Source: a candidate division KSB1 bacterium | GTDB lineage: Bacteria > Zhuqueibacterota > JdFR-76 > DREG01 | Length of the DNA stretch: 11,778 bases | Direction: 5' to 3' | NCBI GenBank assembly: GCA_022566355.1 | Contig: JADFJB010000137.1 | Location: 1-11,778, forward strand | Part shown: piece after piece, positions 509 to 11,096 of the stretch | Layout of the letters: each line of letters starts with the position of its first letter | Numbering within the stretch: the stretch's first letter is position 1 | Notes under the pieces: model-generated | Database searches by the model: none | The model's input: the letters and a program-made list of their open reading frames with translations, nothing else | What the model was told of the DNA's origin: nothing | Made by a program: the position numbers and the translations under genes

Positions 509-1057
509 ATGGCAAAATGGACTTTTGAACCAGGTCATACTGCAGCGGAATTTCGCGCCAGACATATGATGGTAACCTGGGTGCGCGGTCACTTTACAGA
601 TATTCACGGTTCTCTTGAGTTTGATCCAATTGATCCGCGAAAATCTTCCGTGGAAATAACAATCGACGCAAGCAAAATTTGGACCGGCGATGAGAATAGG
701 GATGGCCATTTGCGGAGCGCAGATTTTTTAGATTGTGAAAACCATCCTGAAATAACCTTTAAGAGTAATAAAGTAGAACAAACCGGCGACAATGACTACT
801 CGGTTATGGGTGATCTCACCCTACGCGGGGTTACCCGCGAAGTGCAGATGGAGGTCCATTATTTAGGCCAATGGCAAACTTCATTCTGGGTAGATGGGGT
901 TGATAAAGGACCCAAAGCCCGGGCTGGTTTTGAAGCAACCATAAAGATCAACCGCCATGATTTTGGCGTAAGCTGGAATGATACGATGGACAAAGGCGGG
1001 CTTGTAGTGGGTAATGATGTTCACATTGTTATCGATGCTGAAGCTATTATGGATTAA
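509..1057 (+). CDS. YceI-family protein
   Basis: This 182-residue protein matches the YceI/polyisoprenoid-binding-like family, an extended lipocalin-like beta-barrel that binds long isoprenoid or amphiphilic ligands in characterised members. Visible landmarks are WTFEPGHTAAEFRARHMMV at the N-terminus, SADFLDCENHPEITFKS (about 70-86), DLTLRGVTREV (102-112), RAGFEATIKINRHDFGVSW (138-156) and the closing GNDVHIVIDAEA strand (168-179). The length is normal for a cytoplasmic member. There is no signal peptide, unlike the periplasmic E. coli protein, so it probably acts in the cytoplasm. AAGGAG (496-501) sits 7 bases before the ATG and fixes the start. It appears to be a single gene. Its stop is followed immediately by a two-copy 32-bp repeat. 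The family call is firm; the ligand is unknown. Confidence 0.95.
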   Translation: MAKWTFEPGHTAAEFRARHMMVTWVRGHFTDIHGSLEFDPIDPRKSSVEITIDASKIWTGDENRDGHLRSADFLDCENHPEITFKSNKVEQTGDNDYSVMGDLTLRGVTREVQMEVHYLGQWQTSFWVDGVDKGPKARAGFEATIKINRHDFGVSWNDTMDKGGLVVGNDVHIVIDAEAIMD

Positions 1058-1122
1058 AGAGTGCCACTGACTTTCACAAGACAAAAATTTAAAGAGTGCC
1101 ACTGACTCTCACAAGACAAAAA
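1056..1122 (+). repeat. stop-codon-associated repeat, two tandem copies
   Basis: Two 32-base copies, 1056-1087 and 1091-1122, differ at one position (CTTTCAC against CTCTCAC) and repeat with a 35-base period. Each reads AAAGAGTGCCACTGACT, then YTCACAAGACAAAAA. The first copy starts inside the TAA stop of the YceI gene. The same core recurs after the propeller gene (8003-8043) and, on the minus strand, after the J-PilZ gene (8149-8220). Confidence 0.9.
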
Positions 1123-1153
1123 CAATATAAAACAATATTATTTTCGATTTCGA

Positions 1154-1173
1154 CCATAAATTTTGATTTATGG
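1154..1173. repeat. 8-bp perfect hairpin between yceI-like and small-protein genes
   Basis: CCATAAAT (1154-1161) and ATTTATGG (1166-1173) form a perfect 8-bp stem with a TTTG loop, 47 bases before the next start codon. There is no T-run after it, so it is a weak terminator at best. It could be an operator or a leader structure. The flanks carry a further imperfect duplication, GATTTCGA (1146-1153) and GATTTCGAT (1186-1194). Confidence 0.4.
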
Positions 1174-1219
1174 ACTGTTGATCTTGATTTCGATAAATTA
1201 TGAGAAAAAGTAAAATAAA

Positions 1220-1489
1220 ATGGATGACACACCAAAGAATATCGCAAATCTATACAAAGATACGATCTTAGCTCCTTCTCCTCAGGATAGATTGAGAATG
1301 GTAAGCTCGATGTTCGACTCTGCAAAAAAGCTAGCTGCAGCAGGAATTCTATCAGAAAAGCCAAATCTATCTCCTGCTGAACTACGGGCTAGTTTGTTTA
1401 CAAGATTTTATGGGGGTGATTTTTCAACTGATGAATGCAAAATTATTGTTGATAGATACCTTAACCTTGCAGAAGTCAATTCGAATTGA
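1220..1489 (+). CDS. small helical protein of unknown function
   Basis: This is an 89-residue soluble protein without signal peptide or membrane segment. I cannot give it a function. The layout is NIANLYKDTILAPSPQDRLRM (7-27), a helix SSMFDSAKKLAAAGIL (29-44), then SPAELRASLFTRFYGGDFS (51-69). It resembles a recurrent type of small protein in which an 'SPxxRLRM..MFxxAK' helix is followed by 'ELRxxLFxRFYGxDF'; that comparison is from memory. The ribosome binding site is weak (AGAAAAAG, about 10 bases upstream), but no better in-frame start exists. It ends 25 bases before the GT9 gene on the same strand and could be co-transcribed with it. Codon use looks like that of its neighbours. It is likely a real gene, but translation is not assured. 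Confidence 0.7.
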   Translation: MDDTPKNIANLYKDTILAPSPQDRLRMVSSMFDSAKKLAAAGILSEKPNLSPAELRASLFTRFYGGDFSTDECKIIVDRYLNLAEVNSN

Positions 1490-1514
1490 AAATCGTACTA
1501 GCACGGGATTATGA

Positions 1515-2606
1515 ATGAAAGCTGAATCGGTCAAGACAGATTGTTTCCATTACAAGGGCCACATCCCTTGCTGGCCAAACAAAAAATACGATGTGTCATG
1601 TGACTCATGTGATCACTATAAACCCATCCGAACCAAGGTTTTGATTATTAAACTTGCTGCAATCGGTGATGTTATTCGCACTACACCTTTACTTAAAAAG
1701 TTAAGGGAGACAACCCAAAATTGCCATATCTCATGGGTTACAGATAGCCCGGAAATACTTTCGCACAGGCATGTTGATCAAATTTACAAATTCAATTTTA
1801 AATCAGCCTTCATTCTCTCAAATGCAAGCTTCGATATTGCCATCAATTTGGACAAAGACCTCGATGCATGTACATTATTGGATAAAATCCAGGCTTCACA
1901 AAAATACGGTTTCGGCTTAAAAGACGGTACTGTTTTTCCGGTAAATTCTCTAGCCGAACACAAATATCTGACAGGTATATTCGATCATTTGTCAAAAGAA
2001 AATAAGAAGAATTATCTACAAGAAATCTTTGAGCTATGTGGCTTTGAGTTCAACCAAGAACCATATGTTCTGGAAGCAGATCCAAAATATCAGGTTAAGT
2101 GGGCCGGATTAAGAGAACAAGCGGGTTCGAAAAAAATAATCGGTTTAAATATCGGTTGCGGGACGAGATGGCTCACTCGTTTGTGGCCCGATGAATATTG
2201 GTTTGAATTAATCCGAAACTTACAAGATGCGCAACACTATCCGATTCTGTTGGGCGGGAATGATGAAGATGAAAAGAACACGGCGTTTTCCGAAAAAACC
2301 AATGCATTTTACCCGGGGACTTTCTCACTGCTGGAATTTATCTCTCTAACCTCGCAATGTGATATAATTATTTCTGCTGTGACCATGATGATGCATATTG
2401 CAATTGGACTAAAGATCCCGCTGGTTTTGTTTAACAATATCTTCAATCCGCATGAATTTGAACTTTATGATAACGGCATCATTTTACAACCGGATACCGG
2501 TTGCGATTGTTATTATGGCAATACATGTCAGCGTGACCGGCACTGCATGTATGATCTTCCAGTGAATTCGGTTCACAATGCTATCGATGAATTATTGGAT
2601 CGATGA
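1515..2606 (+). CDS. GT9 (heptosyltransferase-like) glycosyltransferase with N- and C-terminal cysteine clusters
   Basis: This 363-residue protein is a GT-B fold glycosyltransferase of family GT9, the family of LPS heptosyltransferases. It would add a sugar to lipopolysaccharide core or another surface glycan on the inner face of the membrane. The N-terminal domain opens with KVLIIKLAAIGDVIRTTPLL (41-60), the GT9 hallmark. The donor-binding half has LNIGCGTRWLTRLWPDEYW (211-229) and VTMMMHIAIGLKIPLVLFNN (289-308). The usual SGDTG before MHIA is replaced by SAVTM. A cysteine-rich N-terminus (C10, C19, C29, C32) and a C-terminal cluster (C330, C332, C338, C344) look like metal-binding knuckles. 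The start follows an in-frame TGA directly, so it is the first possible ATG; no clear Shine-Dalgarno is seen. The stop overlaps the next gene by ATGA. Family is firm; substrate is unknown. Confidence 0.92.
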   Translation: MKAESVKTDCFHYKGHIPCWPNKKYDVSCDSCDHYKPIRTKVLIIKLAAIGDVIRTTPLLKKLRETTQNCHISWVTDSPEILSHRHVDQIYKFNFKSAFILSNASFDIAINLDKDLDACTLLDKIQASQKYGFGLKDGTVFPVNSLAEHKYLTGIFDHLSKENKKNYLQEIFELCGFEFNQEPYVLEADPKYQVKWAGLREQAGSKKIIGLNIGCGTRWLTRLWPDEYWFELIRNLQDAQHYPILLGGNDEDEKNTAFSEKTNAFYPGTFSLLEFISLTSQCDIIISAVTMMMHIAIGLKIPLVLFNNIFNPHEFELYDNGIILQPDTGCDCYYGNTCQRDRHCMYDLPVNSVHNAIDELLDR

Positions 2607-3727
2607 AAATAGCATTACTCTCCACCCTCTACCCTTTTCGTGGCGGTATTGCTCAATTTAATGCGGCTCTATTTAATGAATTCAAAAAAAATCATACCAC
2701 CAAAGCCTATACCTTCACAAGGCAGTATCCCAATTTATTATTCCCGGGGCAAACACAATATGTGACCGAATCTGATAATGCTGAAGTAATCGAATCTGAG
2801 GAGGTGTTAGATTCAATTAATCCATTGTCTTATTATTTAACTGCAAGAAAAATAAATTTATATCGACCAGATCTTTTGATTGCGAAATTTTGGATGCCTT
2901 TTTTTGCACCATCCCTTGGATATGTGTCAAAAAAATTGCGAAAGCAAGGGACAAAATCGATTGCCATAATAGATAATTTGATTCCCCATGAAAAAAGAAT
3001 AGGCGACTTGGCCCTGGTCAAATATTTTATCAATCGTTTTGATGCCTTTGTTGTGATGAGCAAAGTAGTCGAACAGGATTTATTGCGAGTTTTACCTAAG
3101 GCTCAATATGTTCTGCATCCCCACCCGATTTATGATCATTTTGCCAAGAAGGTCGAAAAAGAAAAAGCGCTAAATCAACTGAACCTTCCGCAAGACAAAA
3201 AGATACTGCTCTTTTTCGGATTCATTCGAAAATATAAAGGACTGGATATTCTACTCAGATCTATGCGCCATTTAAGTGATGATTATCTTCTGCTTGTAGC
3301 CGGTGAAATCTATGGCAGTTTTGATGAATATCAAAAAATAATTGATGAAGAAGAAATCGCCGGGAAAGTCAGCTTGCATATTCGTTATATTAATGATGAT
3401 GAAGTCCCACTATTTTTCTCGGCAGCGGATGTGACTGCTCTCCCTTATAAATCAGCCACACAGAGTGGGATTGCGCAGATTGCAATGCATTATGAATTGC
3501 CGCTTATCGTGACCCAAAAAGGCGGATTACCCGAACTGATTGAACACGAGAAAACCGGACTCATCCTTAAAAATGAAGATGCCGAAGAATTAGCCCGTTT
3601 AATCGACTATTATTTTCAAAATAATTGTAAATCAAAATTCGCTAGTGAGATTGCAAAACAAAAGGACCGGTACTCCTGGCCACAATTTACCCAAAGCCTC
3701 TTAACACTTTATGAACAACTTTCTTGA
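2603..3727 (+). CDS. GT4-family glycosyltransferase
   Basis: This 374-residue GT-B glycosyltransferase belongs to the GT4 (retaining) superfamily. The N-terminal acceptor half begins MKIALLSTLYPFRGGIAQF (1-19), where RGGIAQ is a typical glycine loop. The donor half starts at ILLFFGFIRKYKGLDILL (201-218). It carries LPYKSATQSGIAQIAMHYELPLI (280-302) and then GGLPELIEHEKTGLI (307-321). The canonical first glutamate of the EX7E motif is replaced in the SATQSG segment, while the glutamates of GGLPELIE remain. The ATGA overlap with the GT9 gene implies translational coupling, and the two enzymes probably work on the same surface glycan, heptose- or hexose-containing. No membrane segments are seen. 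The stop is TGA, and no clear terminator follows before the minus-strand relic. Donor and acceptor cannot be read from the sequence. Confidence 0.92.
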   Translation: MKIALLSTLYPFRGGIAQFNAALFNEFKKNHTTKAYTFTRQYPNLLFPGQTQYVTESDNAEVIESEEVLDSINPLSYYLTARKINLYRPDLLIAKFWMPFFAPSLGYVSKKLRKQGTKSIAIIDNLIPHEKRIGDLALVKYFINRFDAFVVMSKVVEQDLLRVLPKAQYVLHPHPIYDHFAKKVEKEKALNQLNLPQDKKILLFFGFIRKYKGLDILLRSMRHLSDDYLLLVAGEIYGSFDEYQKIIDEEEIAGKVSLHIRYINDDEVPLFFSAADVTALPYKSATQSGIAQIAMHYELPLIVTQKGGLPELIEHEKTGLILKNEDAEELARLIDYYFQNNCKSKFASEIAKQKDRYSWPQFTQSLLTLYEQLS

Positions 3728-3757
3728 ATAATTTAATTCTAAACTTAATCTAAATCA

Positions 3758-4518
3758 TTATTCCTTTTCCAGCGCCTCGAGTTTCTTTTCACAATAGGAT
3801 TTGGCAGCAACTCCATTACTTTTTCATAGTTTTGTTTCGCTAATGCTTTATCATCTTTCATCACATGGAGCTCAGCTAACTAATGTAAAGTAACTCATGA
3901 AAGATTTAGTTAGGATAATGATCAATATTCAATTTAAGTATTTCGATTGCTTCTTCACTTTGATTTTGCATTGCCAGTTGACTGGCAAGCCGGGTTAGTA
4001 CATTTTTCCGAAAATCGTAAACAAAGCTGAGTTCCCGCAAATCATGGTATTTTGAGATAGCTGCTTGTATACCTTCTTCAGAAACGGTTGCCGTCAGTAC
4101 CTCTTCAAGCGTTTGCTGCAGATTCTGGCCATGCTGACAGGTTGTACAATTGACTTCAATGGTTTTCTCTCTACCCAATTTTGTCATATATTGGCTGTTA
4201 ATTTCTTTGGTCATCTTGAGCATAAACCGAGCAATTTCTTTGGTCTCTTTTTCATCTGCAGGAAAATCGAATTGCGAAAGTGGCATCCTTCTTCACCCAT
4301 AAGGCAATACTGGCAACGAAAACCAAGCGCCCGGTAAAGCCTTTCATATTTTCGATAAGTTCATTGATGGCTATTTCTTTTGGAAACACCTTCAAGTTTT
4401 TCAATTCTTTTGGCGGAAACTGGGCACAAACATTAGCTGCGCCGAATAATAAGATCAACAAAAAAAATGCTAGGACCTTCCTCCATGTTTGTATTTTGTT
4501 TATTTCAGACTTTATCAT
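3758..4518 (-). pseudogene. decayed dihaem c-type cytochrome (reaction-centre cytochrome-like) with TPR tail
   Basis: Joining frames on the minus strand gives one recognisable protein. From ATG 4518 (ribosome site AAAGGAG, 4525-4531) it has a signal peptide ending NVCA-Q, then PPKELKNLKVFPKEIAINEL. A frameshift near 4325 leads to ALGFRCQYCLMGEEG, and another near 4286 to PLSQFDFPADEKETKEIARF, then VNCTTCQHG. A helical, TPR-like stretch follows (SEEAIEILKLNI), a stop at 3906-3908, a further frame with AELHVMKDDKALAKQNYEKV, and a last shift to KKLEALEKE and TAA (3758-3760). The layout matches the short dihaem cytochromes related to the photosynthetic reaction-centre cytochrome subunit. Both CXXCH motifs have lost histidine: CQYCL (4301-4315) and CTTCQ (4134-4148). 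At least three or four frame breaks make function very unlikely. A living paralogue probably exists elsewhere. Confidence 0.85.
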
Positions 4519-4541
4519 GAGAAACTCCTTTCTTGTGTAAT

Positions 4542-4577
4542 TGGATACAAAATCGATTGATGGCTGTATCCATCAAT
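4542..4577 (-). promoter_or_regulatory. two overlapping, mutually exclusive hairpins in leader of cytochrome relic
   Basis: TGGATACA (4542-4549) pairs with TGTATCCA (4565-4572), and ATTGATGG (4556-4563) pairs with CCATCAAT (4570-4577). Both stems are perfect 8-mers and share bases 4570-4572, so the full stems cannot form together. The site lies 24-59 bases upstream of the relic's start codon, just before its ribosome binding site. It may be a relic of an attenuator or a double operator. Confidence 0.35.
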
Positions 4578-4837
4578 ATTGTGAAGTTAATTCCAATTGC
4601 TGGTAGTTTGATTGTAGCGGAAAAGCTAGGTCAATACCCAAAGACTACAGATTTGTAACCATTCGACAATAAATTTATTTTGTTTCATTTTTAATTGTTT
4701 TGCTTTATATTAATTCAGTCCGGCAGGATATTGATCAGGAATTTGAACTTTCTAAAGTTGAATATCCAACTTCTGTATGTCCCTTTTAAATTAAAAAATG
4801 ATTCACACAATAGGTAACCATACCATTTCACAAACCC

Positions 4838-4846
4838 AAAGGAGGT
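4838..4846 (+). promoter_or_regulatory. strong Shine-Dalgarno of propeller gene
   Basis: AAAGGAGGT is complementary to the anti-Shine-Dalgarno over its full core, four bases before ATG 4851. It is the strongest ribosome site in the window and decides the start, in agreement with the signal peptide that begins there. Confidence 0.85.
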
Positions 4847-4850
4847 CGTT

Positions 4851-7800
4851 ATGAAACGATTATCTCTATGCTTTATAATACTGGCGGTTTTGTTTACCAC
4901 TTTACCAACCTTCGGTCAACCGATGCCACCGGATAAAGCGCTCAAATCACTGAAATGGCGTGCAATCGGTCCGGCGAATATGGGTGGCCGAGTAACGGCC
5001 ATTGCCGGTATTCCGGGTGATCCAAGCACATATTATGTTGCCGGAGCAGATGGCGGTTTGTTTAAGACCACAAATGGCGGGGTTACATTCGAAGATCTGT
5101 TTACCGACCAACGCTCCTATTCCGTGGGCGCTATTGCCATTGCGCCATCTGACCAAAATGTTATCTGGTTGGGCTCCGGCGAAGGCGATCCTCGCAATAG
5201 CGTTGGCTACGGCCATGGCGTCTACCGTTCCCTGGATGCTGGTAAAACCTGGACGCATCTGGGCCTGGAAGGCACCGAACGTATCAAACGGATTGTCGTT
5301 CATCCGGATAATCCTGATATAGCATACGTTGCAGCATTGGGTCGTGAGTGGGGACCCAATGAAGAGCGCGGTGTATTTAAAACCAGCGATGGCGGTAAAT
5401 CCTGGGAAAAAGTTCTTTATATAAACGAGGACACCGGCTGCTCGGATATTGCCATGGAAAATAACAATCCACGTATTCTCTATGCCGGTATGTGGACATT
5501 CCGCCGCCGGCCCTGGCGTTTCGATGATGGCGGTAAAGAAACAGCGCTTTACCGCTCGATGGATGGCGGCGCTAACTGGAAAAAATTGACCAAGGGTTTG
5601 CCTAAAGGTTCAATGACACGCATCGGTGTAGCAGTGGCGCAAAGCTCACCCAATATTGTTTACATGATCACCGAATTTAAAAAAGATGGTACCTTTTTCC
5701 GGTCGGATAATCGCGGCGATACATGGCGGAAGGTGTATGACAATCCCAATATCAATTTTCGTCCATTTTATTACAGCGATATCCGTGTCGATCCTAACAA
5801 TCCTGATCATATTTACGCCCTTTCCGGTGGATTAAGCAAATCCACCGATGGCGGTAAAAATTGGACCAGAATAGCCCGGGGGGTTCATGGCGACCACCAG
5901 GCTTTCTGGATCGATCCGATGAATTCCAAACGTTTACTAAGCGGCAGTGATGGTGGTTTCCAGGTTTCATATGACGCCGGTAAAACCTTCGATATCATTA
6001 ATAATGTCGAACTGTCCCAATTTTATCAATTGAATCTCGACGATCTCGATCCATATAATGTCTACGGCGGATTGCAGGATAACGGTACCTGGGTCGGGCC
6101 GAGTAACTCATTGAGAAGCGTTGGTATTTTAAAGCGGGACTGGAAAGCCCTGGCAGGCGGCGATGGTTATTATGCTGTTCCGATACCGGGAAGTGAGCAT
6201 GAAATTTATGCCAATCTGCAGGGCGGTGTCATTTTTCATGTGGATTCGCGAATGGGCAATGTTCGCAATATCCATCCTTACCCTAAAATAACGGGTTCTG
6301 CAGGCGATGCCATTTTCGAACACAAATACCGCTTTAATTGGGACTCACCCATTCTTATTTCACCTCATGATCCCAATACGGTTTATTTTGGCGGAAATGT
6401 ACTGTTTAAGACAACCGATAAAGGCTATTCATGGGAAATCATTAGTCCGGATTTAACCACCAACGACAAAAGTAAGCAGCAAACTTCGGGTGGCGAAATT
6501 TACCAGGACAATACTGCTGCAGAATTTCACTGCACGATTTTAACCATAGCAGAATCACCTGTGGAAAAGGGTGTTATTTGGGTGGGAACTGATGATGGCA
6601 ACATCCAAATCACCCGCGATGGCGGTAAGAATTGGACAAATATAAAAGATAAAATAAAAGGACTGCCGGATTTTTCCTGGGTTGCTAAGATTCACGCATC
6701 CGAACATGATGCAGGTACAGCCTTCGTCGCAGTCGATCATCACCGCAGTGATGACTTCCGACCCTATGCGTTCATGACGACAAATTATGGCAGCTCCTGG
6801 ACTATGGTAAGCAAGGGCTTGCCACAGGATGATTATGTCAAGGTGATCCGCCAGGATCCACATAATGCAAACCTGCTGTATGCCGGCATGGAGCATGGTA
6901 TTTTTGCTTCCTGGGACAAGGGGTTAACCTGGACAAAAATCAATAATAATTTACCACCAGTCTCAGTGCGAGATTTACGTGTACAGGCACGTGAACGAGA
7001 CCTGGTGGTAGCCACCCACGGACGCGGCGTCTGGATTTTGGACGATATTCGGCCTCTGCAGGAATTGGCTGAAGCACAAAAGCAAGACGTTCATCTCTTT
7101 GAATCCCGTCCGGCTACTCGATGGCACTTGCAGGGTCGTATCGAAAACCTGGGCCAGCGTACATATATTGCAAAAAATCCTGCTTACGGCGCTTATGTGA
7201 ACTTTTACCTGGCGGAAAAAGCTGACGAGCCGGTAAAGTTAACCATCAACGATTCTGACGGCAATTTGGTGAGGACCATAACGGATTCTACAGCCAAGGC
7301 CGGTGTAAATCGAATAGTCTGGGATTTACGTTACGGTCAAGGAACCAGGCTAAACGCGCCGACTACCACCAGACGCCGACGTTTTGGTGCCGGCGGGCCA
7401 AGGGTTACTCCCGGAACTTTTGCAGCTATTTTGGAAGTTAGCGGAAAAACATTAACATCGTCTATTACGGTTCGTCCTGATTTTCGTATTGAAATGACCC
7501 CTGGGGATTACCAGGCGCAAGCGGAAGCGACACTTGCATTGCGGGATTTACAATCCCAAACCAATAAATTGCTCAATGATACAAAATTATTAACTGACCA
7601 ATTGAAAGAGCTAAGTAAAAAAGTTAAACAAATGCCTGCGGCGACCAATGGTCATAATGGATCCAACGATGACGCAAAAGGAATGCCTAGTGAAATAACT
7701 GAAGCAATTAAAAATACACTCAAAAATATTAAGGAGATGCGGAATGAACTGCAGCGTCCGCCGCCCAGCATGTCTTATCGCCAGCGACCACGCTTGCGCG

Positions 7801-8003
7801 AAGAAATTCGGTCTTTATCCAGAGCCATTGATGGCGCTACGGCGCGGCCAACGAAACCACAATTGCTGCGTCTATCACAGCTGCAAGAAGAAACAACTGC
7901 CGCTGTCCGTGCTTACGAGCAATTGATTACTACTGAGATTGATGCGATTAACAAGATGGTAGAAAATATTCCCCAGATTGTTGTGGGATCGAGCGGCACA
8001 TAA
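4851..8003 (+). CDS. secreted Asp-box (BNR/sortilin-type) beta-propeller protein
   Basis: This is a 1050-residue exported protein. Residues 1-23 are a signal peptide ending TFGQ. Residues about 35-735 carry eleven Asp-box motifs (S/TxDxGxTW type): 73, 127, 178, 236, 285, 331, 373, 521, 588, 643 and 687, for example TSDGGKSW and STDGGKNW. These mark blade turns of one large or two consecutive sortilin-like propellers. Family landmarks GDHQAFWIDP (347-356), SGSDGGFQVSYDAGKTF (364-380) and ATHGRGVWILDD (721-732) are present. A beta-sandwich-like part (PVKLTINDSDGNLVRTI, 794-810, and NRIVWDLRYG, 820-829) resembles FlgD-type Ig domains. From about 885 to 1045 it is helical and coiled-coil-like, with a proline/arginine linker (969-982). 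Such proteins are common in FCB bacteria and often annotated as glycosyl hydrolases, but no catalytic residues can be named. The role is probably binding in the periplasm or at the surface. Confidence 0.93.
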   Translation: MKRLSLCFIILAVLFTTLPTFGQPMPPDKALKSLKWRAIGPANMGGRVTAIAGIPGDPSTYYVAGADGGLFKTTNGGVTFEDLFTDQRSYSVGAIAIAPSDQNVIWLGSGEGDPRNSVGYGHGVYRSLDAGKTWTHLGLEGTERIKRIVVHPDNPDIAYVAALGREWGPNEERGVFKTSDGGKSWEKVLYINEDTGCSDIAMENNNPRILYAGMWTFRRRPWRFDDGGKETALYRSMDGGANWKKLTKGLPKGSMTRIGVAVAQSSPNIVYMITEFKKDGTFFRSDNRGDTWRKVYDNPNINFRPFYYSDIRVDPNNPDHIYALSGGLSKSTDGGKNWTRIARGVHGDHQAFWIDPMNSKRLLSGSDGGFQVSYDAGKTFDIINNVELSQFYQLNLDDLDPYNVYGGLQDNGTWVGPSNSLRSVGILKRDWKALAGGDGYYAVPIPGSEHEIYANLQGGVIFHVDSRMGNVRNIHPYPKITGSAGDAIFEHKYRFNWDSPILISPHDPNTVYFGGNVLFKTTDKGYSWEIISPDLTTNDKSKQQTSGGEIYQDNTAAEFHCTILTIAESPVEKGVIWVGTDDGNIQITRDGGKNWTNIKDKIKGLPDFSWVAKIHASEHDAGTAFVAVDHHRSDDFRPYAFMTTNYGSSWTMVSKGLPQDDYVKVIRQDPHNANLLYAGMEHGIFASWDKGLTWTKINNNLPPVSVRDLRVQARERDLVVATHGRGVWILDDIRPLQELAEAQKQDVHLFESRPATRWHLQGRIENLGQRTYIAKNPAYGAYVNFYLAEKADEPVKLTINDSDGNLVRTITDSTAKAGVNRIVWDLRYGQGTRLNAPTTTRRRRFGAGGPRVTPGTFAAILEVSGKTLTSSITVRPDFRIEMTPGDYQAQAEATLALRDLQSQTNKLLNDTKLLTDQLKELSKKVKQMPAATNGHNGSNDDAKGMPSEITEAIKNTLKNIKEMRNELQRPPPSMSYRQRPRLREEIRSLSRAIDGATARPTKPQLLRLSQLQEETTAAVRAYEQLITTEIDAINKMVENIPQIVVGSSGT

Positions 8004-8043
8004 AGCCACTGACTTAAGCCACTGACTCGCACGGACGAAAAAA
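8003..8043 (+). repeat. stop-codon-associated repeat after propeller gene
   Basis: AAGCCACTGACT occurs at 8003-8014 and again at 8016-8027, followed by CGCACGGACGAAAAAA (8028-8043). The first unit begins on the last base of the TAA stop. The order GCCACTGACT, two bases, CAC, GAC, A-run is the same as in the repeat after the YceI gene (1063-1087). A looser continuation, ACACAGACTAAAAAATGG (8056-8073), follows. Confidence 0.8.
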
Positions 8044-8148
8044 TGCCAAAGACATACACAGACTAAAAAATGGACCACTCACTTACACTGTGCCTCAAAA
8101 AATAAAAGTGATTTCTGAGATGTGTTAAAAGTCTGTATAAGCCTATGG

Positions 8149-8220
8149 TTCTAGTCTTATGCAAGTCTGTGGCAGTCTGTGGGTCTAGTCTTGTGTAAGT
8201 CTGTGGCAGTCTGTGGCCTA
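8149..8220 (-). repeat. stop-codon-associated repeat after J-PilZ gene, two tandem copies
   Basis: Two 34-base units (8149-8182 and 8183-8216) match at 31 of the 33 positions from 8150 and 8184 onward. Read on the minus strand the sequence is TAA, TAGGCCACAGACT, GCCACAGACTTACACAAGAC. It therefore starts 3-4 bases after the stop of the minus-strand gene and is the same family, with A for T in the core, as the plus-strand copies at 1056 and 8003. With the 8003 copy it forms an inverted pair in the convergent intergenic region. Confidence 0.85.
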
Positions 8221-8910
8221 TTATGCAGAAGCAGAAAGAAACGAGCCAGACGAAATTGCAAATGTGACTGTCTGAAATTGAACGCCAACTGAATAGAAAA
8301 TTGTGCCGTTTATTTTTTGGCGATGACATTCAACTACTTTCGCGATTGCTTTAAGCAAAGCTCCGCTTACTTTAATGACGATATTGTTTGGCAAACCCTT
8401 CTTACTGAGGAAGCGCATGCCCTTCGGCGAAAGATCAATAATGTCTGCATCATCCCCCTTTTGCGGCCAATACGAATAAAATCGAATTTTACCGAATTTC
8501 TTGATCCGCACCACAGAGCGGCGGCATTTCTGTTCCAGCTCCTCATCATCGCTTGATTCCAACGGACAGCTACACGTATAACAGGTTTCATTTGGACTTG
8601 CCTTGCGGGCTAAGGGTCGTTTACAAAAGGGACAAAAAACACGAATTATTGGCGTCTTTTCGGGCTCCTTTGAGGAAAAAGGTTCCTTAGTATAATATTC
8701 ATAAAGTTTAATATCATAGACTCCGCGTTGAAAGGGATCGCTGAGAACCTCATAGGCTTCATTTAATACCTTGGCATTCCAGTGTTCACCTCCTAAATCC
8801 GGATGCTGCCGGAGCTCTTTCATCAATGTACGATAACTTGAGCGAATGATTTCAAATGGCGCGTCGGGCTGAATGTGGAGAACCCGATAATAATTTCGTC
8901 TGGATTTCAT
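8221..8910 (-). CDS. J-domain / zinc-ribbon / PilZ fusion protein
   Basis: This 229-residue cytoplasmic protein has three modules. Residues 6-66 are a J-domain (NYYRVLHIQPDAPFEIIRSSY...AKVLNEAYEVLSDPFQRGVYD) with the catalytic HPD at 36-38, so it should stimulate an Hsp70/DnaK ATPase. Residues 93-115 hold CPFC and CYTC knuckles (C93, C96, C110, C113), consistent with a zinc ribbon. Residues about 128-217 are a PilZ domain with RSVVR (131-135) and DLSPKG (159-164), fitting the RxxxR and DxSxxG cyclic-di-GMP contacts, and the closing strand YSVGVQF (206-212). It lies downstream of the ArsR-SRPBCC gene on the same strand, 109 bases away, and may be transcribed separately. No good ribosome site is seen before ATG 8910, but the J-domain begins at once, so the start is sound. 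The domain calls are firm; a chaperone role controlled by cyclic di-GMP is inference. Confidence 0.9.
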   Translation of the reverse strand: MKSRRNYYRVLHIQPDAPFEIIRSSYRTLMKELRQHPDLGGEHWNAKVLNEAYEVLSDPFQRGVYDIKLYEYYTKEPFSSKEPEKTPIIRVFCPFCKRPLARKASPNETCYTCSCPLESSDDEELEQKCRRSVVRIKKFGKIRFYSYWPQKGDDADIIDLSPKGMRFLSKKGLPNNIVIKVSGALLKAIAKVVECHRQKINGTIFYSVGVQFQTVTFAISSGSFLSASA

Positions 8911-9847: not shown

Positions 9848-10274
9848 AGTATGTTTGAAATTGCTAGTTTTTTTTGACGCGGTAAATAATTCAGTGAAAT
9901 ATTGGCTTTGTATAGTTGCCCATTTAGTTTTGCAATTCAATTTCCCCAATAATTTCCCACCGCCAGGATCGGCCTCTGCTCCTAACTTCCCCTAACTGGA
10001 GTCGAATTTCCCGCGAATGGCGATTGGTGCGTGTTATTTTAAATATGCGGGATCTTAAACAAATATTTGATAAGTATGGTTAATAAAAATGCAGAAAGTA
10101 ACATAAATTATTGTGGTGTACTTGAGATTTTTCCCGTTTATGGGTACTTTTCTATTGACATATTTACCTTAATAAATTAGGTTCTTATTGTTATATAAAT
10201 TTCATAAACCAGCCTAAAATAACGAAAAGGAGATAAACAGGTTCAATAAATACAATTACTATTGGAGGTTTAGT
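9848..10274. other. intergenic region before hicBA
   Basis: No gene is visible. It contains the first 50-nt direct repeat (9911-9960), a local duplication around CTCCTAACTTCCCCTAACTGG (from 9978), the perfect palindrome CAAATATTTG (10060-10069), a consensus -35-like TTGACA (10155-10160) whose best -10 at 17 bp is only TAGGTT (10178-10183), and an orphan Shine-Dalgarno-like AAAAGGAG (10225-10232) with no start codon at a usable distance. The real ribosome site of the next gene is GGAGG (10264-10268). Confidence 0.5.
9911..9960 (+). repeat. 50-nt direct repeat, left copy, flanking hicBA
   Basis: It runs from TATAGTT (9911) to CCCAC (9960). The right 29 bases (9932-9960) match 11060-11087 with one base missing and one mismatch, sharing CCCCAATAATTTCCCAC. 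The left part (TATAGTT, then ATTTAG) is more diverged. The copies are in the same orientation, 1127 bases apart, with hicBA between them. Confidence 0.75.
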
Positions 10275-10923: not shown

Positions 10924-11096
10924 ACTTCTTCATCACCTTCTCCTCTCTTTCCGCCCCGCTCAACCTCACTAAAAACACTGCCCTTATTCCCAAGCTGCAC
11001 ATTCACATCCGTAAAATTCCGGGCGCGTACCGATTGGTATAGTTTAGCAACTAAATTACGCAATTCATATCCCCAATAATTTCCCACAACATCCAT
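10911..11096 (-). other. short open frame, probable fragment of a dispersed element
   Basis: A 61-codon minus-strand frame begins MDVVGNYWGYELRNLVAKLY and ends in a low-complexity charged stretch (VERGGKRGEGDEEVRSF). I do not recognise it. Its first part is the right-hand 50-nt repeat; the left copy translates in the same frame as VGNYWGN and then stops. The shared VGNYWG suggests both are fragments of one once-coding or mobile element. No ribosome site precedes the ATG (11094-11096). I would not annotate it as an active gene. Confidence 0.3.
11038..11087 (+). repeat. 50-nt direct repeat, right copy, flanking hicBA
   Basis: It runs from TATAGTT (11038-11044) to CCCAC (11083-11087) and is the partner of 9911-9960. 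The shared GCAATTCA and CCCCAATAATTTCCCAC make up the best conserved half. It is preceded by CGATTGGT (11031-11038), which also occurs at 10021-10028, after the left copy, so the repeats may be pieces of a longer element. Confidence 0.75.

Follow-up and report, generated by a model that had tools for sequence, protein, structure and literature searches.

Stop-abutting short-word repeats in a candidate division KSB1 genome as probable arms of small hairpin mobile elements associated with GxxExxY genes

The short repeats that abut stop codons in the window, by which is meant the whole 11,778-nucleotide stretch of candidate division KSB1 DNA analysed here, probably constitute the arms of mobile elements of inverted-repeat (hairpin) form, which are small, IVS-like or MITE-like in kind and carry a GxxExxY gene when complete. 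The architecture of the elements, their dispersion, their presence or absence at corresponding sites, their association with GxxExxY genes and their proximity to stop codons are all matters of observation. The plan to which these point would begin with a degenerate word of 10 nt (GCCACAGACTNNCACAGACTAAA) repeated in tandem and facing outward, followed by a loop and then by reverse-complement copies; in complete elements the loop would house a small gene, GxxExxY, bearing a PD-(D/E)XK nuclease signature, and most copies, including that at window positions 8005-8217, would be gene-less derivatives.

Copies at stop codons in the window and its genome

A sequence-only reading of this DNA had reported that three unrelated genes, coding for YceI-family, propeller and DnaJ-domain (J-PilZ) proteins, are each followed at or just beyond the stop codon by the same motif, and re-examination of the window confirmed the coordinates of every copy. 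The YceI stop (1055-1057) precedes copies at 1063 and 1098, the propeller stop (8001-8003) precedes copies at 8005 and 8018, and the DnaJ-domain stop on the minus strand (8221-8223) precedes leftward copies at 8217 and 8183 located in two 34-nt units. With up to three mismatches allowed, the pattern matched the window 11 times against 2.4 expected, a number reached in none of 200 shuffles.

Table 1. Coordinates within the window of the repeat copies and of the genes that they adjoin.
Feature	Position	Strand	Remarks
YceI-family gene, followed by the one-armed copy	509..1057	+	domain complete, profile 1-150/150
One-armed copy at the YceI stop	1054..1122	+	two 35-nt tandem units, each with TTAA of the stop codon
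Sortilin/VPS10-like propeller gene	4851..8003	+	ends 1 nt before the element
Gene-less inverted-repeat (hairpin) element	8005..8217	.	fills the gap of two convergent genes
Left arm	8005..8043	+	GCCACTGACTTAA GCCACTGACTCGCACGGACGAAAAAA
Inner degenerate words, left half	8045..8095	+	GCCAAAGACATACACAGACT, ACCACTCACTTACACTG
Right arm	8146..8217	-	two 34-nt units GCCACAGACTGCCACAGACTTACACAAGACTAGA (91%)
DnaJ-domain gene	8221..8910	-	stop 3 nt from the element

The entire gap between the propeller and DnaJ-domain genes proved to be a single structure, with GCCACTGACTTAAGCCACTGACTCGCACGGAC on its left and the two leftward GCCACAGACTGCCACAGACTTACACAAGACTAGA units on its right, presenting GCCAC at both outer ends. 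The copies previously listed at 8003 and 8149-8220 are consequently correct in position but are not independent, since they form the left and right arms of a single element. Folding bore out a possibility already raised in that listing, namely that the plus copy at 8003 pairs with the minus copy at 8216: as RNA, positions 8001-8223 form one predicted hairpin of -73.2 kcal/mol, compared with -50.5 +/- 4.2 kcal/mol for shuffled sequences (z -5.4), with no U tract of the kind that characterises intrinsic terminators after the stem.

The YceI copies lie in a 35-nt tandem unit (TTAAAGAGTGCCACTGACTYTCACAAGACAAAAAT, 97%) which itself contains the stop codon, and because both units begin right at that codon (TTAAAGAGTGCCACTGACTYTCACAAGACAAAAA), the duplication took place in situ and included it. 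No inverted partner was found within the gap up to the next gene, and these copies do not fold (z -1.2); they may represent a one-armed remnant duplicated in place along with its stop codon.

Other features of the window were also recorded. Positions 9907-9960 and 11034-11087 hold a different dispersed repeat pair of 54 nt and 70% identity (TTTGTATAGTTGCCCATTTAG...CCCCAATAATTTCCCAC), unrelated to the stop-abutting element. A palindromic stretch (CACTGTCATCCAGGACGGATCTATTTA, GATCCCGTCGTGCGACGGGATGAC) at about 40-170, and likewise at L078:100-290, resembles by eye the sequence beside a 23S-rRNA-IVS protein (IVP) gene on contig C148, and is possibly another short mobile repeat. On the minus strand at 3906-4518, a c-type cytochrome-like gene (CytoC_RC match) is apparently split over two frames and is probably a frameshifted pseudogene.

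When the search was extended to the genome of the window (G000; 4.62 Mb in 213 contigs), the pattern as first described returned 55 matches with at most one mismatch, against four for its reversed form, and a wider pattern, CACNGAYTNNCACNGAY, returned 54 against none for the control. The repeat is real, its core requiring correction to a degenerate 10-nt unit, CACRGAYTNN. Genes were called with a purpose-written simple codon-model finder, which may err on individual starts and on very small genes. Of the 28 GAC-type clusters that it placed between genes, 16 lie behind a gene on their own strand, at stop distances of -1, -1, 1, 1, 2, 3, 5, 5, 7, 14, 34, 54, 72, 79, 169 and 377 nt; where the upstream neighbour is on the opposite strand, the distance is never below 39 nt. 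The orientation of the motif with the gene is thus genuine throughout the genome, and arises because the arms always face outward, with the outer end meeting a stop.

The genome-wide comparison with random positions that had been put forward to probe the stop preference upheld it. Ten of the 24 testable GAC-type clusters (those with both neighbours known) start no more than 14 nt from a same-strand upstream stop, as against a Monte Carlo expectation of 1.6 under uniform placement and random strand within the same gaps (P < 5e-5), since none of 20,000 trials reached ten and none exceeded six. One of the ten adjoins the stop of a GxxExxY gene itself. A GAT-type sister repeat of the same genome (20 clusters) was rejected as an instance of the same entity, because it shows no stop attachment, its nearest cluster being 16 nt away, and forms part of a longer conserved repeat, roughly GCCACAGACTAACACAGCGCGGCCTTGGGCCGCAACCAAATTATTTAGCCACGGATTTTCACTGATTGACACGGATAAAATCCGTTTAG, which is dispersed over L034, L036, L039, L054, L059, L060, L137 and L141.

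An inverted partner, when present in G000, is always on the inner A-rich side of a GAC-type cluster and never on the GCCAC side; about half of the clusters are without a recognisable partner in the same gap, and in unbiased tiles inverted arrays occupied four of 74 tandem gaps, hardly above the 2.7 obtained from shuffles. That clusters lie at stops more often than random placement allows suggests either that gene ends are truly preferred or that the gap has been trimmed as far as the stop. More generally, adjacency to stops may stem from targeting, from survival only in gaps, or from erosion of the remaining gap. Survival is enough to account for it in short operon gaps; in G000, where 50-350 nt of the gap often remain beyond the copy, survival alone does not explain it. 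Under targeting, the TA of a TAA or TAG codon joined to a G-starting end would regenerate TAG, as seen in several of the -1 cases. The earlier suggestion of a mobile sequence targeting gene ends is close to the reading preferred here.

These same data could be read as describing a host 3'-end element that certain genes carry behind them, whether a terminator or a signal for processing or mRNA stability: copies in G000 lie close to stops and follow gene orientation beyond chance, the paired element folds stably between convergent genes as a two-way terminator would, and the C-rich, G-poor gene-sense strand of the arms makes a Rho-type signal conceivable. Such a role is very unlikely to be their primary nature, in view of the non-folding YceI copies, the failure of an Rfam search of the window to match any family, and the layout of the arms in other phyla.

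Arms in other phyla and the genes between them

The motif scan with GCCACAGACTNNCACAGACTAAA covered 84,980 species genomes, and the same 23-mer was encountered in 33 stretches from Nitrospinota, Nitrospirae, Lentisphaerae, a Brocadiaceae bacterium and BMS3Bbin05. In these stretches the motif is often arranged in facing pairs, GCCACAGACTTTCACAGACTAAA ... TTTAGTCTGTGAAAGTCTGTGGC, of 59-440 bp end to end between neighbouring genes, where one end commonly follows a stop at -8 to about 20 nt and the other precedes the next start by 7-30 nt; because these loci were picked by motif, and L117 and L121 match in sequence around it, their counts are descriptive. Many such copies lie inside tandem gene pairs, and a second arm just ahead of the next start codon, as in Nitrospinota, argues against a 3'-end signal. 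In 13 genomes GCCACNGAYTNNCACNGAY was present at 3-88 copies per genome, its reversed control being absent, and in six Nitrospinota genomes arrays occupied 60 of 179 tandem gaps of at least 40 nt against 1.9 expected. The outer ends often read TTAGCCAC...GTGGCTAA.

In Nitrospinota, nested arrays were observed at L100:3773-4005, L102:3055-3358 and L109:3041-3180, in which several words, each with its inverted partner, are stacked with CACAGAC outermost, ACAGGAT inside it and GAAGATAG further in, a pattern that the insertion of one element into the loop of another might produce. At L192, L213, L215 and L117 of the same phylum the words differ and the outer flank is conserved, with roughly AACAAAAACCTGATTTTA preceding the words and TAATCAGGTTTTTGTTCTTG following them; this flank may be the true element end.

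Between matching arms in Lentisphaerae (L096:6410-6849) lies a gene for a 123-aa GxxExxY protein (TIGR04256, E 1.3e-40), and a full copy with the same layout as the window element, GxxExxY gene included, was located in G000 itself on contig C175 (2807-3341). The latter spans stop to stop: an ABC-permease-like gene ends 1 nt before its left arm, and the stop of the convergent gene overlaps its right arm. The loop protein passes the family cut-off (GxxExxY, TIGR04256 / PF13366), and that of C175 keeps the D...ExK signature of PD-(D/E)XK nucleases (ADIVVEDTVIIEIKA), a putative catalytic D..ExK being retained in 40 of 45 GxxExxY ORFs. Among the 791 kb of G000 examined, the rare CACAAGAC variant was confined to the window and C175, whence the window elements look like close kin of the GxxExxY-bearing one.

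A PDB sequence search with GxxExxY revealed no real homologue (the best hit, with E 0.0016, covers a portion of a restriction-endonuclease GTPase chain), and a PADLOC search only weak Cas4 similarity. In the literature searched, most subscription journals lying outside it, mentions of GxxExxY are sparse, the one consulted being a passing remark, and propose no function for it; the search yielded no description of a link between GxxExxY and arrays and nothing relevant on the words or flanking repeats.

Within the phylum of the window, GxxExxY was detected in 73 and the four-helix IVP in 74 of the 82 genomes searched. Flanks 10-300 nt outside each match were scored for the GxxExxY and IVP genes of these genomes and for GxxExxY genes from 14 other genomes, with array-detector thresholds set after first looks at the data. 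Outward-inverted CACNGA...TCNGTG arrays flank 12 of 25 GxxExxY genes in the phylum and 8 of 22 in other phyla (20/47 in total), as against none of 26 IVP genes (Fisher p = 2.5e-5), with 0.0 expected from shuffles in each of these three sets; among size-matched ordinary genes from G000 and from Nitrospinota tiles they flank none of 53 and none of 132 respectively. These strict CACNGA arrays are found at some GxxExxY genes only; inverted arrays of any word are found at 17/25 and 19/22 GxxExxY genes and at 20/26 IVP genes, compared with 4/53 and 29/132 ordinary genes. The arrays at IVP genes use other words, for example GGCAAAC, ACTGGAT and TAGAGGC. In G000 there are 18 matches to the four-helix IVP family, on contigs C79, C19, C97, C112, C83 and others, and several of them are stop-broken; each of the ten that were inspected is flanked by short inverted arrays of words.

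This recurrent partnership bears on whether the repeats are a classic MITE, the non-autonomous relative of a DDE-transposase IS with a TA or similar target, for which GxxExxY would be a mere passenger. Terminal inverted repeats, small size, high copy number and occurrence in distant phyla would all be expected of such an element, and the outer ends TTAGCCAC...GTGGCTAA fit insertion at a TA target, by which a TAG stop would be restored. It is nevertheless an unlikely explanation, given that the gene seen repeatedly between matching arms is GxxExxY, that the arms consist of degenerate tandem words with no fixed terminal repeat, and that the word varies between sites and species.

Under the preferred reading of GxxExxY-carrying hairpin elements, the GxxExxY protein would recognise CACNGA-type arms and move or maintain elements both in cis and in trans, gene-less copies being served in trans. 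The element would persist in transcripts as an RNA hairpin, in the manner of the 23S rRNA IVS, and that hairpin would let it sit in operons; insertions would be retained where both neighbouring genes were spared, so that the arms would come to begin at stop codons.

Occupied, empty and changed orthologous gaps

Orthologous gaps were compared in six genomes of one Nitrospinota family. At site A, two genomes have a CACGGAT/CACAGAC element and a third has CACCAGAG words, whereas the others lack an array, the neighbouring genes overlapping in the empty site of G064. At site E, a 9-nt gap (TAA-AGGAGTATT-ATG) in G059 corresponds to an 80-bp CACAGAC element in G060 and to CACCAG words in G069. Site B is occupied by CACAGAC in two genomes, CACGAAT in one and AGCAATG in two, and site C by four different words, one genome having no array. 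Because arrays fill about one third of tandem gaps of at least 40 nt, the sharing of a gap by different arrays is unsurprising in itself, and it is the empty sites and the change of word that matter. The empty/occupied pairs are A-rich and diverged, and no clear target-site duplication was resolved in them.

For G000, an exact 19-mer was absent from all 58 relatives, so that the insertion history of its lineage is not directly readable; the DnaJ-domain orthologue in G001 ends at a contig edge, and the propeller homologues are too distant for comparison.

The finding that sister species have nothing, or words of another kind, at these sites weighs further against a 3'-end signal, as do arms that bracket a nuclease-like gene. 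Different words in the same orthologous gap, the nesting of arrays with several words, and tandem growth in situ, as of the YceI unit with its stop codon, could alternatively be products of hairpin-templated slippage, in which a polymerase switching between arms would grow arrays de novo, with no mobility, in any gap with a small inverted repeat. This is considered very improbable, since identical words turn up in distant phyla and at numerous loci that are not linked, the class of word corresponds to the family of the loop protein, and the window and C175 have the rare CACAAGAC variant in common.

Mobile hairpin elements, the reading retained here, may moreover belong to a broad class of bacterial selfish elements, a proposal advanced only tentatively. 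In such a class, short, degenerate words in inverted arrays would form the hairpin, the loop protein would dictate the word class (CACNGA with GxxExxY nucleases, other words with the four-helix IVP), elements with different words would replace each other in the same gaps, and the 23S rRNA IVS would be the rRNA-resident members.

Comparison with known systems

Several described families of short repeats share part of this plan. The TAACTGA repeats of Beggiatoaceae and cyanobacteria and the STRR heptamers, in the parts of that account consulted, are likewise short intergenic tandem words that span distant lineages and lie non-randomly near genes; unlike the present arrays, they are there direct repeats, most of them lying immediately ahead of a start codon, and apart from a single inverted case; no protein partner is described (PMC4679880).

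MITEs, such as the enterobacterial RU elements (PMC2759123), are also short, gene-less, intergenic, multicopy inverted repeats, whereas the arms described here are arrays of 7-10 nt words and matching ends are found around GxxExxY genes. REP/REPIN sequences and the RAYT transposases (PMC2817692, PMC3116915) provide a parallel, since there too dispersed palindromes outside genes are linked with a separate family of proteins, but the present elements lack a GTAG/CGTC tag, end in GCCAC..GTGGC, consist of word arrays in place of a 20-40 bp palindrome, and have a PD-(D/E)XK-type protein as partner. MITEs and REPINs may be regarded as functional analogues.

Taken together, the results point to a little-described class of bacterial selfish DNA and not to a gene-end signal. 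The link with arrays suggests for the GxxExxY and IVP families a role that can be tested, as the protein component of a mobile hairpin element, and since about one third of the sizeable tandem gaps in six Nitrospinota genomes hold arrays, effects on operon mRNAs could be widespread. The link would in addition explain the recurrence of a type of short repeat across distant phyla, and would supply relatives of the rRNA IVS outside rRNA.

The IVS of 23S rRNA in Coxiella, Leptospira and Salmonella has complementary ends that form a stem, with a small ORF in the loop, and has been proposed to be mobile or selfish; its protein, S23p, is of no known function and its origin has been called unclear (PMC4990558). 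Unlike the IVS, the elements examined here lie between protein genes and not in rRNA helices, their CACNGA class carries GxxExxY and not S23p/IVP (0/26), and their arms are tandem degenerate words. Like it, they have complementary terminal arms forming a predicted stem and, in full copies, an ORF in the loop, and the IVP/S23p genes of G000 also lie in inverted arrays.
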